DNA of 34,674 nucleotides from a virus. Made by a program: the position numbers and the translations under genes. This document shows positions 3,385-18,463 of the stretch, piece by piece; within the stretch, counting starts at the first letter, position 1; each line of letters opens with the position of its first letter. The stretch is from the IMG/VR virus record IMGVR_UViG_3300045107_000287, positions 1 to 34,674 of that record; one strand, written 5' to 3'. The notes under the pieces are model-generated. The model made no database searches. It saw only the letters and a program-made list of their open reading frames with translations, and was not told the origin of the DNA.

Positions 3385-3489
3385 GACGGCTCCGAGGAAT
3401 AGCAACCGTCAGAAATAGTGAACCTGATCCTTCGGACAGGATGGCAACGCAGGGTAATCGGCGCAGAAAATTGCGCGTTTACGAAACAG

Positions 3490-3518
3490 TTGACCGGCGC
3501 ACGTCTTGGGCTTATGAT
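3490..3518 (+). promoter_or_regulatory. Sigma70 promoter of the XRE-ImmA cassette
   Basis: TTGACC (3490-3495), 17-nt spacer, TATGAT (3513-3518): both hexamers match the consensus at five of six positions with ideal spacing. The predicted start of transcription, about 3525, falls on the first base of the operator-like motif, so the regulator probably shuts off its own promoter. Confidence 0.75.
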
Positions 3519-3524
3519 CCTGAA

Positions 3525-3542
3525 ATTAACCAATTACGCAAT
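3525..3542. promoter_or_regulatory. Operator-like motif O1 at the XRE transcription start
   Basis: ATTAACC-N6-GCAAT, an imperfect inverted repeat (ATTAAC on one strand, ATTGCG on the other). The same motif with identical spacing is at 4704-4721, before the second half of the cassette. It overlaps the predicted +1 of the XRE promoter and ends 12 nt before the XRE start codon. Most likely the binding site of the XRE protein; this is inferred from position and repetition. Confidence 0.55.
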
Positions 3543-3554
3543 TAGGAAAAGGCC

Positions 3555-3833
3555 ATGCCTTTCGGAGACTTCATTCGCAAGAAGCGCGAAGAGAAGCAGA
3601 TACAGATGAACGACTTCGCGCGTCAGCTTGGGATTTCGCCTGCCTACTGGTCACGCATCGAGCGCAACATGGAAAAGCCGCCCAAGGACGAGCTGATCCG
3701 CAAAGCGGCAGAGATTCTGGGCATCGATCCGGACGACGCCTTCGTTGAGGCCAGCCGTCTGCCGCCCGATATGCGCGAGGATGTGGCCAGCGTGGTGCGG
3801 ATGTACCGCCGGGAAGTCACGGAGAAAAAGTGA
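3555..3833 (+). CDS. XRE-family transcriptional regulator
   Basis: A 92-aa single-domain regulator. The cro/CI-type helix-turn-helix covers about residues 6-60 (FIRKKREEKQIQMNDFARQ, then ISPAYWSRIERN, then KAAEILGI). The tail (residues 65-92) carries no visible partner domain. It is followed without any gap by an ImmA/IrrE protease gene, the classic pairing in which the protease cleaves the repressor after a stress signal (as ImmR/ImmA in ICEBs1, or DdrO/IrrE in Deinococcus). The promoter and O1 directly upstream fit autorepression. It is the only repressor-like gene seen in this prophage, so it may hold the lysogenic switch, or it may control only the cassette behind it. Confidence 0.93.
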   Translation: MPFGDFIRKKREEKQIQMNDFARQLGISPAYWSRIERNMEKPPKDELIRKAAEILGIDPDDAFVEASRLPPDMREDVASVVRMYRREVTEKK

Positions 3834-4646
3834 ATGCCGGCTCTGACCCTCGACTACCGGCATTGCGACCGCAAGCGCCCCAAATTCCTCAAGCACGTTG
3901 AAATCGAAGCCATCGCCGCACAGGCCCGTCAGCAGCTGGTGGAAAGTGGTGTTGATGCCATTGCCTTCGACGCGTTGAGGCAGATCGACCGGTTGGAGAT
4001 CAACGGCATCGACTTCGCGCTCGAGGTCAGCACCGAATGCGAGGTGCATGATGAGGATGGCAAGCCCGTATTCGGGATCTGTGAGTACGACCCATGTGTC
4101 CCGGACACGGCGATGGTATGCGTGTCGCCGGTCAGCGAAAAACTCAACGAGCTGCTGGCACTCAGCACATTGGCCCACGAACTCGGACACGCGGTGTTCG
4201 ATGCACCAGGCTGGATCTTGGATGGCAGCAAGGGACCAGGACTGTTCGACGCCTTTGAACCAAGTGGGCAGCGCGCCTATCGCACCACCACACCGGACAG
4301 CGAGCACTTGGCGAAAGTGCCAACTGCCCCGTCAGCAGCACAGGCGACTGAAGCGCATTTTGCCGAGCTGCGCGCCAACGAGTTCATGGGGTCGCTGCTG
4401 GTACCGCGCCAACTGTTGAGCACAGCAGCAGAGGAGCTGGCTCCGCAATACAAGGTCAGCGTGCATCGTGGGCCTTCGCTCGATGCGGAGATCCCCGGCA
4501 CCAGTCTGCAACTGAGCGCGACATCCCCCGTCGATATGGAATTGCTGGAACGGGCACTGGCCATGCGGTTTGGCGTCAACCCGCGCTTTGTGCAGGTGCG
4601 CTTGCAGCGCTACGGCCTGACCCGACCGGGGGCTGCAGTGCGCTGA
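3834..4646 (+). CDS. ImmA/IrrE-family metallo-endopeptidase
   Basis: A 270-aa cytoplasmic zinc protease. The HELGH motif (His115, Glu116, His119) is the HEXXH metal-binding and catalytic signature. The probable third ligand is Glu178 in the phrase ELRANEFMGSLLVP, the ExxANxF block of the family. The start is the ATG directly after the XRE stop codon, with GGAG 9 nt upstream. Family members cleave a cognate XRE repressor, so the neighbour upstream is the likely substrate. The C-terminal 70 residues (after about 200) extend beyond the minimal domain and could sense the signal. A terminator follows at 4669-4693. Confidence 0.93.
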   Translation: MPALTLDYRHCDRKRPKFLKHVEIEAIAAQARQQLVESGVDAIAFDALRQIDRLEINGIDFALEVSTECEVHDEDGKPVFGICEYDPCVPDTAMVCVSPVSEKLNELLALSTLAHELGHAVFDAPGWILDGSKGPGLFDAFEPSGQRAYRTTTPDSEHLAKVPTAPSAAQATEAHFAELRANEFMGSLLVPRQLLSTAAEELAPQYKVSVHRGPSLDAEIPGTSLQLSATSPVDMELLERALAMRFGVNPRFVQVRLQRYGLTRPGAAVR

Positions 4647-4668
4647 ACAACGAACCGCAAAACTTTCG

Positions 4669-4693
4669 CGCCGACCTCGCGTCGGCGTTTTTT
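4669..4693 (+). terminator. Terminator after the ImmA/IrrE gene
   Basis: A 7-bp stem CGCCGAC/GTCGGCG with a 5-nt loop and six T residues, 23 nt after the protease stop codon. It should separate XRE-ImmA transcription from the two genes behind it, which then need their own promoter near O2 or read-through. Confidence 0.85.
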
Positions 4694-4703
4694 GAACCGA
4701 TCA

Positions 4704-4721
4704 ATTAACCTTTCGCGCAAT
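4704..4721. promoter_or_regulatory. Operator-like motif O2 before the 464-aa gene
   Basis: ATTAACC-N6-GCAAT, the same bases and spacing as O1 at 3525-3542 (14 identical bases over 19 when the flanking A and C are counted). It lies between the terminator and the ribosome site of the 464-aa gene. I find no convincing -35/-10 pair around it, so either the promoter is weak or needs an activator. The repeat suggests that the XRE protein also controls the two unknown genes. Confidence 0.55.
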
Positions 4722-4752
4722 CGCGCACATTGTTTCTCAAGGAGTGGCGTGT

Positions 4753-6147
4753 ATGGCAACAACCGAACTGAACGACATCCAATCCAGCAACGTGTCTGCG
4801 CTTGCCGGGACGGAACATGGCAAAACCCGGACTCGCGGCAAGGACAACGGCCCCAGCACCTTGCCACATCTGGAGCGTCTGGTTCACCTCACACGCAAAG
4901 TGCAGCGCCCGGTGCTGCTGCGGGTGCTACTGGAATCGACGCATGGTCAGGCACTCCCTGCCGTACAGGCGCTGACCGATGACGCCAAAGGCTCGCTGCC
5001 TATTTCATCCCGCAATGCGCTGTTCGCACTGGTTGCCGGGATGCAGCCGGAAGTGCAGGCGCGGCTCGAACGCGCCGCCGAGCGCATCACATTGCTGGTC
5101 GACGAGTATGGCGCGTTGGCAGTGACGGAACTGATGGATGCAAGCAGGCCCGATGATGCTGCCATTCTGGCGGCGCCGTCCGACAAATACAGCCGGGCGT
5201 TGTACCTGTATCTGGAGCAGGAGTGTTCGACGTCAGGCTCCGTGAAAAATCGCTTTGAGCACGCCGAACAACGCCAGCAGGTGCTGCGGCATTTCCAGAG
5301 CGAAAAATACTCGAGCCATTACCTGGGTCCCAAAGGCGCACAGCCCACGTTGGATGCTTATGCAGAAGAAAGCATGAAACAGCGTCTGGCGGAACTGTTT
5401 CCGCAGGTCAAGGCAGAGGACATCCTCGTAGAGCCGTTCGCCCACCGGGAAAGTGATGCCCCCGATGCGCCGGTGCTGCTGTACACGCTATCGGTCAAAT
5501 TCAACGGCAAGCACATTCATTACCCCAAGATCATCAATGGCGAGGACACCGATGTGGATGACTCGTCGACGGTCTATGTGCGCTATTCCTGGCACAGCAG
5601 CAAAGGCGAATTGTCGGTATTCAGTGATGATGAAACCGTGCGGCCCGAACTGGCCAAGGTCTTCCGCGACGTGGTGCTGGGCGGCGATGGCGACATTCAC
5701 ACCATGCCGATGCGCGAGTTCGACCTCATGGGTTTCTGTACGCCCGCCATCCTGGCCCGGTTCAAGAAAGACCGTATTGCAGGCATCGAATCCATCGATA
5801 TCAAGCACATTCTGATTGCCAACCCGGAAGTACGTCAGACCACGGTGAAAAACCGACTGATCGCCCGTCGCGTGGAGAACCCGTTGCTGATCAAGCGCGA
5901 CCGCTTTGAGGATCGCAATATTTACGAGGTGGCAGGACAGGTCTATCCGCTTGTCGACCTTACGAACTACGTCGTGAAGCAGGTCAAACTGACCTTCCGC
6001 ATCGGCCAAACCGCGCATCGCAAAGCGCACGATGTATCGGTGCAGATCACGGCGCCCAACGGGTTCAATGATGCCAAGCTGACCAGGGCCGACAGCGAGC
6101 TGGTGTTTGCCCAGCTCATGCAACTTGATTGCGCGCGCCAGTACTGA
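4753..6147 (+). CDS. Unknown 464-aa protein of the XRE-ImmA cassette
   Basis: I do not recognise this protein. The ATG at 4753 has AAGGAG 8 nt upstream; a GTG at 4744 lies inside that ribosome site and is unlikely. Residues about 35-180 are mainly helical and charged. Residues about 200-420 look like alternating beta strands and helices (VLLYTLSVKFNGKHIHYPKI, STVYVRYSWHSSKGELSVF, EVAGQVYPLVDLTNYVVKQ). No Walker, protease, nuclease or transmembrane signature is evident. The base composition is visibly less GC-rich than the flanking phage genes, which fits acquired cargo. It is followed after 7 nt by the 305-aa gene, so the two probably act together. Its place next to the integrase is where temperate phages often carry defence or fitness genes, but that is inference. 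Confidence 0.85.
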   Translation: MATTELNDIQSSNVSALAGTEHGKTRTRGKDNGPSTLPHLERLVHLTRKVQRPVLLRVLLESTHGQALPAVQALTDDAKGSLPISSRNALFALVAGMQPEVQARLERAAERITLLVDEYGALAVTELMDASRPDDAAILAAPSDKYSRALYLYLEQECSTSGSVKNRFEHAEQRQQVLRHFQSEKYSSHYLGPKGAQPTLDAYAEESMKQRLAELFPQVKAEDILVEPFAHRESDAPDAPVLLYTLSVKFNGKHIHYPKIINGEDTDVDDSSTVYVRYSWHSSKGELSVFSDDETVRPELAKVFRDVVLGGDGDIHTMPMREFDLMGFCTPAILARFKKDRIAGIESIDIKHILIANPEVRQTTVKNRLIARRVENPLLIKRDRFEDRNIYEVAGQVYPLVDLTNYVVKQVKLTFRIGQTAHRKAHDVSVQITAPNGFNDAKLTRADSELVFAQLMQLDCARQY

Positions 6148-6154
6148 AGTCGCC

Positions 6155-7072
6155 ATGCTGCACTCGGAATTTTTGCTGGTACTGGAACGTGCCCGCAGCC
6201 TCGAGGAACGGCTGCAGTCTGACGACTTGCGTGGTCACGCTGCTGCTTTCCTCGCTAGGCGATGGGTGATGGCCGATGGACACCTGACACATATCCTTGT
6301 GCCGGTGCTCGACAGTGAGCAGGAGGTCGAGGTTGATGTCGACGATGACCTGCAGACCTACAGCTACCAAAGCCCGGGTTGCCGTGGCCGGGTCGTCACG
6401 CGACCGTTGGCGGATATCGCGTTGTACGTGGTCAACATTGATGCGTGGATGGACGAGATTTGCGACCTGCTCGAAATCGAGCCTTCACAGCGGGCACGCA
6501 GTCGGGAGGTCATCGCAGATCACCTCTGGCATTTGGGCAATATCCGGGTGGGAAACACACATCGGCACGCGCCGGTCTATGTTGCCCGCCGTATGAATGC
6601 TGGCGATCAGGATTTGCGGCAAGCGCTTCTCAGCGCCAAGCGGCCCAGCCAGGGCATCGTGCTGACTGCACACGACCTGGATATCGAACTACCGAACAGT
6701 CACCAGACCTGTGGCATCGACCGGCTGATCGTGAATTCCGGCGATGGCCTTTCCTGTGACGCCGAGCTCCTCCATCGCTTGCTGAAGGGCGTCGCTGCCG
6801 ATGCAGACGATCCGGATGAGTATTTCGATGCGGATACCGGCGAGCTGAAGCTGGCCTGCGTTGCAGAGCCAAAGATTTTCAAGGGTAAGCAGAAGGAGGT
6901 CATTGCGCTGTTCTGGAAGGCGCGCCAGCAGCACAGCCTCAAATGGGAGGACGTCGTTGCACGAACCGGCTGCGGCAAAGATCCCGACAGCGTTTTTGGT
7001 CGCGGCTGGACGACCTGGCTTGTGCGCATCGAAGGTCAGCGCGGCCATTACCGGCTGCGCACACGTCAGTAA
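6155..7072 (+). CDS. Unknown 305-aa protein of the XRE-ImmA cassette
   Basis: I do not recognise this protein. The ATG at 6155 comes 7 nt after the upstream stop; an in-frame ATG at 6107 would overlap the neighbour by 41 nt and lacks a ribosome site. The N-terminal half is acidic (VEVDVDDDLQTY near residue 60). A helical segment near residues 95-150 carries HLWHLGNIRVGNTHRHAPVYVARR. The last 60 residues (KGKQKEVIALFWKARQQH, then TWLVRIEGQRGHYRLRT) look like a winged helix, which suggests nucleic-acid binding. Co-transcription with the 464-aa gene seems certain. A two-protein effector under XRE/ImmA control is a reasonable hypothesis. Confidence 0.85.
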   Translation: MLHSEFLLVLERARSLEERLQSDDLRGHAAAFLARRWVMADGHLTHILVPVLDSEQEVEVDVDDDLQTYSYQSPGCRGRVVTRPLADIALYVVNIDAWMDEICDLLEIEPSQRARSREVIADHLWHLGNIRVGNTHRHAPVYVARRMNAGDQDLRQALLSAKRPSQGIVLTAHDLDIELPNSHQTCGIDRLIVNSGDGLSCDAELLHRLLKGVAADADDPDEYFDADTGELKLACVAEPKIFKGKQKEVIALFWKARQQHSLKWEDVVARTGCGKDPDSVFGRGWTTWLVRIEGQRGHYRLRTRQ

Positions 7073-15652: not shown

Positions 15653-15707
15653 GGTTACCAGTCGGCCAGGTTACCGGCTGCGGTTACCACCCCCAGGCGC
15701 GGTGACC
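15653..15707. repeat. Four GGTNACC repeats
   Basis: GGTTACC at 15653-15659, 15669-15675 and 15682-15688, and GGTGACC at 15701-15707. Each is a 7-bp palindrome around a free middle base. Spacing start to start is 16, 13 and 19 nt. The cluster lies between two hairpins directly upstream of the methyltransferase genes and looks like a protein-binding array. The ligand is unknown. Confidence 0.6.
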
Positions 15708-15734
15708 ACCCCACCAGAATCGTCATTCAACCCA

Positions 15735-15764
15735 CCCGCCCGGCGGCAACGCTCGGCGGGTTTT
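15735..15764 (+). terminator. Hairpin before the first methyltransferase
   Basis: Stem CCCGCC/GGCGGG, loop of 14 nt, then TTTT and a further T-rich stretch. It stops 19 nt before the likely start codon at 15783. A similar CCCGCC/GGCGGG hairpin stands before the capsid gene at 26301-26318. Confidence 0.5.
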
Positions 15765-15782
15765 GCTTTTGGGATTCCCACG

Positions 15783-17207
15783 TTGAACACGCTCAACGTC
15801 GAGTACCGCAAGGTCGAGGCGCTGATTCCCTACGCCCGCAATCCGCGCACGCATTCAGATGCCCAGATCGCCAAGATCGCGGCCAGCATCGTCGAGTTCG
15901 GCTGGACGAACCCGATCCTGGTCGATGGCGCGAGCGGCATCATCGCCGGGCACGGGCGGTTGGCGGCGGCGCGCAAGCTGGGCTTGGCCGAGGTGCCGGT
16001 GATCGAACTGGCGCACCTGTCCGCCGCACAAAAGCGCGCCTACGTCATCGCCGACAACCGGCTGGCGCTGGATGCGGGCTGGGATGAGGAAATGCTGGCG
16101 CTGGAGTTGGCCGAGCTCACCGACGCGGGCTATGACCTGGCGCTCACCGGCTTCGAGGACGCCGAGCTGCGAGACCTGCTGGCAAGCGCCGAAGTCTCGG
16201 ACACGGGCGAACAACAGGACGACGCGGCGGACGACGCCGACGACGTGCCGCAAGCGCCGGCCACGCCGGTGTCCCGCGTGGGCGACGTCTGGGCCATCGG
16301 CGCGCATCGCCTGATCTGCGGCGATGCCACCGACCCAGCCGTGGTCGCCACGCTGATGCAGGGTGAGGTCGCACAGCTTTGCTTCACCTCGCCGCCCTAC
16401 GGCAACCAGCGCGACTACACCACGGGCGGCATTGCCGATTGGGACGGCCTGATGCGTGGCGTGTTCGCGCATCTGCCGATGGCGGGCGACGGTCAGGTGC
16501 TGGTGAACCTTGGCCTCATCCACCGCGACAACGAGGTCGTCCCGTACTGGGATGGCTGGCTCGCGTGGATGCGCACGCAAGGCTGGCGGCGCTTTGCGTG
16601 GTACGTCTGGGATCAGGGGCCGGGGATGCCCGGCGACTGGCAGGGCCGACTGGCCCCGAGCTTCGAGTTCGTCTTTCACTTCAACCGGGAGAGCCGCAAG
16701 CCCAACAAGATCGTGCCCTGCAAGCACGCCGGCCAGGAAACCCACCTGCGCGCCGATGGGTCGTCCACCGCGATGCGCGGCAAGGATGGCGAGGTGGGCG
16801 GCTGGACGCACAAGGGGCGGCCGACGCAAGACACCCGCATCCCCGACTCGGTGATCCGGGTGATGCGCCACAAGGGCAAGATCGGCCAGGGGATCGACCA
16901 CCCGGCCGTGTTCCCGGTGGCGCTGCCGCAGTTCATCATCGAGGCCTACACCGATGCGGGCGACATCGTGTTCGAGCCATTCGGTGGCAGTGGCACGACG
17001 ATGCTGGCGGCTGAGCGTGCAGGCCGCATCTGCCGCACCGTCGAGATCGCGCCCGAGTACGTGGACGTGGCCATCAAACGCTTCCAGCAGAACCACCCCG
17101 GCGTTCCGATCACCCTGATCGAGAGTGAAGGCATCGCGTCGGGTCAGTCCTTCGAGCAGGTCGCTGCCGAGCGCGCCACCAACCCGGATGCCGAGGTGGT
17201 GGCATGA
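15783..17207 (+). CDS. ParB-domain DNA methyltransferase (first of tandem pair)
   Basis: A 474-aa fusion. The ParB-like N-terminal domain covers about residues 5-110 (LIPYARNPRTHSDAQIAKIA, IIAGHGRLAAA, VIADNRLALDAGW). The methyltransferase domain has SPPY (203-206, motif IV) before FGGSGTT (400-406, motif I), the beta-class order of N4-cytosine or N6-adenine enzymes. It should methylate phage DNA using S-adenosylmethionine; the ParB part may bind or scan DNA. The start is uncertain: I prefer the TTG at 15783, where similarity to its paralogue begins, over the GTG at 15702, which would place a hairpin inside the gene. It overlaps the next gene by 4 nt. No restriction enzyme is adjacent. Confidence 0.92.
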   Translation: MNTLNVEYRKVEALIPYARNPRTHSDAQIAKIAASIVEFGWTNPILVDGASGIIAGHGRLAAARKLGLAEVPVIELAHLSAAQKRAYVIADNRLALDAGWDEEMLALELAELTDAGYDLALTGFEDAELRDLLASAEVSDTGEQQDDAADDADDVPQAPATPVSRVGDVWAIGAHRLICGDATDPAVVATLMQGEVAQLCFTSPPYGNQRDYTTGGIADWDGLMRGVFAHLPMAGDGQVLVNLGLIHRDNEVVPYWDGWLAWMRTQGWRRFAWYVWDQGPGMPGDWQGRLAPSFEFVFHFNRESRKPNKIVPCKHAGQETHLRADGSSTAMRGKDGEVGGWTHKGRPTQDTRIPDSVIRVMRHKGKIGQGIDHPAVFPVALPQFIIEAYTDAGDIVFEPFGGSGTTMLAAERAGRICRTVEIAPEYVDVAIKRFQQNHPGVPITLIESEGIASGQSFEQVAAERATNPDAEVVA

Positions 17208-18463
17208 ACTGGCTGGCCGACAAGATCGAGCAGTGGCCGACGGCCAAGTTACTGCCCTACGCCCGCAACGCCCGCACCCACTCCGAGGAGCAGGTGGCGC
17301 AGATTGCGGCTTCCATCGCCGAGTTCGGCTTTACCAATCCGATCCTGGCAGGCAGCGACGGCGTGATCGTCGCCGGACACGGGCGGCTGGCCGCCGCCCA
17401 GAAGCTGGGGCTGGAACGGGTACCGGTGGTCGTGCTCGATCACCTCACACCCACCCAGCGCCGGGCGCTGGTGATCGCGGACAACCGCATCGCCGAGAAC
17501 GCGGGTTGGGACGAGACGCTCTTGCGCATCGAGTTGCAAGACTTGCAGGCCGACGGATTCGATCTCGACATCACCGGCTTCGATGCCGACGCGCTGGCCG
17601 AACTGATAGCGGGCGACGAGCCGGACAACGAGGGCCAGACCGATGAGGACGCGGTACCGGAGGTTGGCGAGACACCCATCTCGCGTCCTGGCGACGTCTG
17701 GATCATGGGCCAGCATCGGCTGCTGTGCGGCGACGCGACCGTGGCCGACAGCTACGAGCGGTTGATGCAGGGCACGGTGGCGGACATGGTCTTCACCGAT
17801 CCGCCGTACAACGTCAACTACGGGAGCAGCGCGAAAGACAAGATGCGCGGCAAGGATCGCGCGATCCTGAACGACAACCTGGGCGAGGGCTTCTACGATT
17901 TCCTGCTGGCGGCCTTGACACCCACCATCGCCCACTGCCGGGGTGCGATCTACGTGGCGATGTCCTCCAGCGAACTGGACGTGCTGCAGGCTGCCTTCCG
18001 CGCGGTGGGCGGCCACTGGTCCACCTTCATCATCTGGGCCAAGAACACCTTCACCCTGGGGCGCGCGGACTACCAGCGCCAGTATGAGCCGATCCTGTAC
18101 GGATGGCCCGAGGGGGCGACACGCCACTGGTGTGGCGATCGCGACCAGGGTGACGTGTGGCAGATCAAGAAGCCGCAGAAGAACGACCTGCATCCGACGA
18201 TGAAGCCGGTGGAACTCGTGGAGCGAGCGATCCGCAATTCGAGCCGCCCGGGCAATGTGGTGCTCGATCCCTTCGGCGGTTCCGGCACGACGCTGATCGC
18301 AGCGGAAAAATCAGGTCGCGCGGCGCGGCTGATCGAACTCGATCCGAAGTACGTCGATGTGATCGTGCGCCGGTGGGAAGAGTTCACCGGGAAGCAGGCC
18401 ATCCGTGAGGCGGATGGCGTGGCCTTCGATCAGGCGGATGCATCCTGCCCGGCGATTCTGTAG
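17204..18463 (+). CDS. ParB-domain DNA methyltransferase (second of tandem pair)
   Basis: A 419-aa fusion with the same plan as the gene before it: ParB-like domain at about 8-110 (LLPYARNARTHSEEQVAQIA, VIVAGHGRLAAAQKLGL, LVIADNRIAENAGW) and a beta-class methyltransferase with DPPY (199-202) and DPFGGSGTT (from Asp355). DPPY favours N6-adenine as product. The ParB halves of the two proteins are clearly alike and the catalytic halves much less so, which points to an old duplication with divergence in target site. Its last 34 nt overlap the 3' end of the leftward DUF3489 gene. It may protect the phage from host restriction or regulate gene expression. Confidence 0.93.
   Translation: MNWLADKIEQWPTAKLLPYARNARTHSEEQVAQIAASIAEFGFTNPILAGSDGVIVAGHGRLAAAQKLGLERVPVVVLDHLTPTQRRALVIADNRIAENAGWDETLLRIELQDLQADGFDLDITGFDADALAELIAGDEPDNEGQTDEDAVPEVGETPISRPGDVWIMGQHRLLCGDATVADSYERLMQGTVADMVFTDPPYNVNYGSSAKDKMRGKDRAILNDNLGEGFYDFLLAALTPTIAHCRGAIYVAMSSSELDVLQAAFRAVGGHWSTFIIWAKNTFTLGRADYQRQYEPILYGWPEGATRHWCGDRDQGDVWQIKKPQKNDLHPTMKPVELVERAIRNSSRPGNVVLDPFGGSGTTLIAAEKSGRAARLIELDPKYVDVIVRRWEEFTGKQAIREADGVAFDQADASCPAIL

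Follow-up and report, generated by a model that had tools for sequence, protein, structure and literature searches.

Conserved operator-like sites flanking the XRE–ImmA regulator genes of a prophage family

The window analysed here, the whole 34,674-nt stretch of the IMG/VR virus record IMGVR_UViG_3300045107_000287, carries the motif ATTAACC-N6-GCAAT twice on the + strand, at 3525-3542 (ATTAACCAATTACGCAAT) and at 4704-4721 (ATTAACCTTTCGCGCAAT). Both motifs are genuine conserved sites, and the reading as a whole, which rests on sequence comparison, is that they are quite likely the operators of the prophage's own XRE repressor and form its lysogeny switch. A preliminary description had reported this identical pair, and it is borne out: the two are the only matches in the whole window with up to one mismatch allowed, where 0.04 are expected, and none of 100 shuffles of the window contained two. 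The agreement of 14 of 19 bases given for the motifs with flanks holds with one base added on the right, and becomes 15 of 19 if it is added on the left. The sites had also been placed correctly. Judged from the -35 and -10 elements and their spacing, XRE transcription is predicted to start near 3525, where the first motif begins, and the second motif lies between the terminator and the gene for a 464-aa protein, flanked by a hairpin with a T-tract (4670-4693) and the ATG at 4753. The features are listed below in window coordinates.

3471..3486, + strand: site U, a third, weaker site, TTGCGCGTTTACGAAA = TTGC-GCGTTTAC-GAAA, with one good half-site
3490..3518, + strand: predicted XRE promoter TTGACC-17-TATGAT, -35 at 3490-3495, -10 at 3513-3518, start near 3525
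3526..3541, + strand: candidate operator O1, TTAACCAATTACGCAA, at the XRE transcript start; top matrix match of the window (26.2)
3555..3833, + strand: XRE-family HTH protein, 92 aa, presumed repressor (HTH_3, E 5e-11)
3834..4646, + strand: ImmA/IrrE-type (M78) metallopeptidase, 270 aa, presumed anti-repressor (PF06114, above cut-off)
4670..4693, + strand: terminator hairpin GCCGAC-CTCGC-GTCGGC with T-tract; stem conserved and covarying
4705..4720, + strand: candidate operator O2, TTAACCTTTCGCGCAA, before the early genes; second matrix match (25.2), found in 98/100 relatives
4722..4728, + strand: extra half-site CGCGCAC, directly 3' of O2, conserved in most loci
4753..6147, + strand: first early gene, encoding a 464-aa protein without family match; fold weakly RdgC-like
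6155..7072, + strand: second early gene, encoding a 305-aa protein that matches no family and no fold

Regulator genes and prophage context

We read the region as the part of a prophage family that controls lysogeny and early genes, with a regulator pair of the ImmR/ImmA type, and not as the cassette with effector genes that had been proposed, because its gene order is nearly constant among the relatives and the rest of the window carries tailed-phage genes (primase, large terminase, portal, head protease and tape measure). In about 100 relatives, drawn from IMG/VR and GTDB genomes, a leftward block of ParB-like, serine recombinase and DUF2924 genes and a rightward block of XRE, ImmA, 464-aa, 305-aa, excisionase-like HTH, phrog_2480, Ant, Sak4 and primase genes are nearly constant. 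The family is found mostly in Burkholderiales and other Proteobacteria, a tRNA-Phe lies at the left edge of the window, and a nucleotide search of phage and plasmid collections returned no match.

The best phage matches of the XRE protein in PHROGs are repressors. The ImmA gene begins immediately after the XRE stop codon, and its product has an intact metal site, with H115, E116, H119 and E178 invariant; a sequence search of solved structures gave no match for it. Two hallmarks of ImmR/ImmA systems were found, namely a cI-like HTH gene directly before an M78/ImmA peptidase with HExxH, and mobile-element surroundings, with neighbouring genes for a recombinase, an excisionase-like protein, Sak4, a primase, a terminase and a portal protein.

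Regarding the early genes, neither the 464-aa nor the 305-aa protein had a family match or a solved structure by sequence search. A model of the 464-aa protein (pLDDT 80) gave a weak fold match to RdgC (E 2e-4, TM 0.2-0.3), a hint that it may have a recombination-related role, and a fold search with the 305-aa model found nothing. A PADLOC search matched neither protein; a defence-system reading was rejected, having no PADLOC support for the downstream genes, and phage early genes come next. Where the 464-aa gene would stand, as the first early gene behind XRE/ImmA, Limnohabitans and alphaproteobacterial relatives have one for a sigma-70-region-2 protein: L097:8901-9476 and L100:8901-9479 (Pfam E 6e-6 and 4e-5) and, with a weaker E of 0.003, L042:7163-7771 (L numbers denote loci of relatives).

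Conservation and shape of the operator

The preliminary description had suggested looking for the motif pair in homologous regions, and it is kept there. The dyad TT(A/G)(A/C)-N8-GCAA is found upstream of XRE in 91/100 relatives (O1) and upstream of the 464-aa gene in 98/100 (O2), the 100 loci being relatives with the same genes, including the 464-aa gene, in a redundant set that contains close kin; about 0.02 chance matches per locus are expected in the stretches searched. O1 lies 28-29 nt before the XRE start codon in 91/100 relatives, and is degenerate in L034-L039 and L089. Among 32 non-redundant loci (<85% identity), the information content is 1.5-2 bits in most columns of the operator core, compared with 0-0.5 bits in the linker beside the operator and 0-0.4 bits from -8 to -3 in the stretch between T-tract and operator. 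Across relatives, the O2 core is 95% identical to the window, against 51% for the adjacent ten bases. A weight matrix built from 38 sites, its training restricted to distant relatives, was scanned over about 69,000 positions of the window and ranked O1 first (26.2) and O2 second (25.2), the next match scoring 13.4. A matrix match at 4883, within the 464-aa gene, was judged to be due to chance: it falls in a conserved coding stretch, and its ACACGC core becomes ACCCGC in near homologs.

The half-sites ATTAAC and ATTGCG had been described as facing each other. A dyad operator, conserved in about 100 relatives, stands, but from the alignments the window operator proper is TTAAC-N4-NRCGCAA, a 16-bp dyad. 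Its left half is TTAAC and its right half GCGCAA or ACGCAA, and the mirror is weak, since TTAAC matches TTGCG at some positions only. Before the 464-aa gene of distant relatives (L034-L040, L090, L093 and L094), a near-perfect mirror, TTGCGCG-TT-CGCGCAA, or a version one base off, stands in the same register as TTAAC-N4-CGCGCAA of the window. Upstream of the regulator operon, the sites of the Limnohabitans group, with GTCGTTGC-GCTATAAT-GCAACGAC over the XRE -10, and of some alphaproteobacterial relatives, with TTGCGTGANNNCGCAA, all fit TTGC-N8-GCAA; several other alphaproteobacterial relatives inspected had no clear dyad. From these comparisons, the ancestral operator is read as the 16-bp TTGC-N8-GCAA. 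The dyad is probably bound by a dimer of the adjacent XRE protein. TTGC-N8-GCAA provides a testable operator code for the prophage family across Burkholderiales and other Proteobacteria, and the comparison points to the switch by which lysogeny is probably decided in that family.

Site U adjoins the XRE -35 on its upstream side and has the fourth matrix score in the window (13.2); its left half is kept as TTGCGCGTTWAC or TTTCGCGTTAAC in most loci. The minus-strand half-site noted earlier near 3468-3475 does exist within TTGCGCGTTTACGAAA and is conserved, but the possible contact with the integrase side that had been attached to it is unsupported, no conserved candidate among the loci having been found for a leftward promoter at site U.

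Terminator, fixed spacing and control at O2

In the proposed switch, XRE at O1 would limit its own synthesis, the site being on the start of its own strong promoter, and XRE at O2 would hold down the early genes (464-aa, 305-aa, excisionase-like HTH, anti-repressor-like, Sak4 and primase). While XRE is intact both sites would be held down and the phage would stay lysogenic; ImmA, made from the XRE transcript, would presumably cut XRE once a signal arrives, for example DNA damage, releasing both sites. The earlier proposal that one protein controls its own synthesis and effector genes survives in part: conserved dyads are present at both places, but the presumed targets are early genes, and O2 has no recognisable promoter.

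The terminator stem covaries, with A-U changed to G-C in 6/13 sequences, and is therefore read as RNA. From the end of the stem to O2 there are 18 nt in 30/32 non-redundant loci, the exceptions being one locus with 17 nt and L095, without the usual stem, whereas the next ATG stands anywhere from 9 to 37 nt behind O2. The position of O2 is thus set relative to the terminator. In a literature search covering few subscription journals, no prophage repressor operator at a fixed distance behind a terminator was found described. Between ImmA and the 464-aa homolog of L090, L093 and L094 the T-tract is broken (ATTTATTGG and similar) and the 18-nt spacing is kept. The extra half-site CGCGCAC is absent in L086-L088 and L143.

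In two relatives (L062:8832-9335 and L120:4241-4744) a deletion has removed most of the 464-aa gene and part of the 305-aa gene, fusing the beginning of the former with the 3' part of the latter, and O2 is retained; one base is altered in the extra half-site after it. In the Limnohabitans group, where the sigma-70 region 2 gene is first after the terminator, the best dyad stands 6 bp further on. This retention of O2 in the deletions, and of the dyad before the sigma-like gene, supports a role for O2 as the control point of whichever early gene stands there.

How O2 would act depends on the promoters. In a sigma70 scan of the loci the XRE promoter has a mean score of 13.5, compared with 6.6 for shuffles; it scores 14.3 in the near-identical L002 (shuffle mean 7.8), and its layout is alike in nearly all loci. 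Before the 464-aa gene, no sigma70 promoter was recognisable in the 78 loci scored (mean 5.7 against 4.8 for shuffles, no consistent -10). Because this is near the shuffle level, a plain repressed promoter at O2 is less likely, and the downstream genes would have to be controlled in some way other than simple promoter blocking, unless a promoter there escaped recognition.

Such a hidden promoter is the main alternative, and it departs from the best explanation solely in the mechanism at O2: the early operon would have a promoter, weak or unusual and missed by the sigma70 matrix, that overlaps the site and at which XRE blocks initiation, for example with TTAAC as the -35 and a poor -10 at 4726-4733. 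We consider this a real possibility, somewhat short of an even chance. TTAAC does resemble a -35, the best match in 4300-4770 is TTAACC-17-CATTGT (score 7.1), L048 has TTAACT-17-TATTGT at the same place (11.8), and blocking of initiation is the usual action of such repressors. However, scores average close to the shuffle level, the -10 differs in position and sequence among loci, TTGCG replaces TTAAC in distant loci, and the fixed 18-nt spacing to the hairpin is left unexplained.

The best explanation instead has XRE at O2 blocking RNA polymerase that has passed the terminator closing the XRE-ImmA transcript, a step that we put forward tentatively. Judging from the known size of the polymerase, its front would meet O2-bound XRE at about the moment when the hairpin has just been copied. 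A little more doubtful is the fuller picture of an early operon that, lacking its own promoter where it is controlled, is fed by read-through of the conserved terminator and is locked by XRE 18 nt behind the hairpin, the bound protein halting polymerase at the terminator. The CI repressors of lambda and 186 are poor roadblocks (PMC10310618), and roadblocking by a phage-type repressor is therefore not expected by default. Mfd clears away polymerase that has stalled at a roadblock (PMC4132739). If read-through is indeed stopped at O2, the lysogeny switch would differ from lambda-type switches in acting on elongation instead of initiation, and the rigid 18-nt spacing would be explained, which ordinary promoter blocking does not do.

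Other readings and known systems

It is very unlikely that the sites are bound by a protein other than XRE, be it the 464-aa protein, the 305-aa protein or a host factor. The weak fold match of the 464-aa protein is to RdgC, which binds DNA, yet neither the 464-aa nor the 305-aa protein is present in the Limnohabitans and alphaproteobacterial relatives, many of which keep the dyad beside XRE, whose recognition helix, ISPAYWSRIER, is invariant across 14 aligned homologs. We regard as highly improbable that the motif acts in RNA, with CGCG-CAAT-CGCG at the second site forming a hairpin that controls translation. Both sites are in 5' leaders, transcribed or probably so, and CGCGCAATCGCG could pair with itself; nevertheless, L086-L088, L143 and L102 keep the dyad but not the pairing, the second CGCG is absent from O1, outside the transcript, on the upstream side of the -35, there is a related half-site, there is no Rfam match, and the distance to the next ATG is variable (9 to 37 nt). 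That the likeness is accidental, or simply inherited in DNA that diverges slowly, has a negligible probability: many loci are close relatives, so that raw counts overstate independence, but the non-redundant core columns are far richer in information than the linker (mostly 1.5-2 against 0-0.5 bits), and core and linker identity (95% and 51%) and the 0.04 matches in shuffles point the same way.

Three known systems resemble the arrangement. ImmR/ImmA of ICEBs1 and TnSmu1 pairs a cI-like HTH protein, which represses the genes of the mobile element carrying it, with an ImmA-type metallopeptidase encoded behind it (PMC10233336). The window likewise has a presumed HTH repressor followed by an ImmA-type peptidase on a mobile element, cleavage being presumed here. 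Unlike in ICEBs1 and TnSmu1, the pair resides in proteobacterial tailed prophages, and the repressor and early genes are co-oriented, with terminator and operator between them; no sensing gene was identified for the window's pair in this comparison. In CapH/CapP, an HTH repressor and a peptidase activated by ssDNA lie upstream of the operon that both control (PMC13373217, PMC10233336). Here too HTH and peptidase genes precede a presumed target operon, with weak profile matches (capH E 4e-5, capP E 4e-4), but the target genes are phage early genes and no known immune operon is adjacent. C proteins are small XRE-type HTH proteins. The restriction-modification controller C.Kpn2I stops elongating RNA polymerase by binding inside the transcribed region (PMC6237814), which is a precedent for the block proposed at O2. 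At O2 no sigma70 promoter is recognisable, and transcription across it is presumed; the C.Kpn2I site falls within the coding sequence of the C gene, whereas O2 is behind a terminator at a fixed distance and would act by a blocking that we infer.

Elsewhere in the window, a perfect TTGC-N8-GCAA at 579-594, inside the leftward ParB-like gene, is probably due to chance, a looser pattern being expected about three times by chance. Two genes lying side by side at 15702-18463 (501 and 419 aa) each encode a ParB-like domain fused to a DNA methyltransferase, with phrog_498 as the best match.
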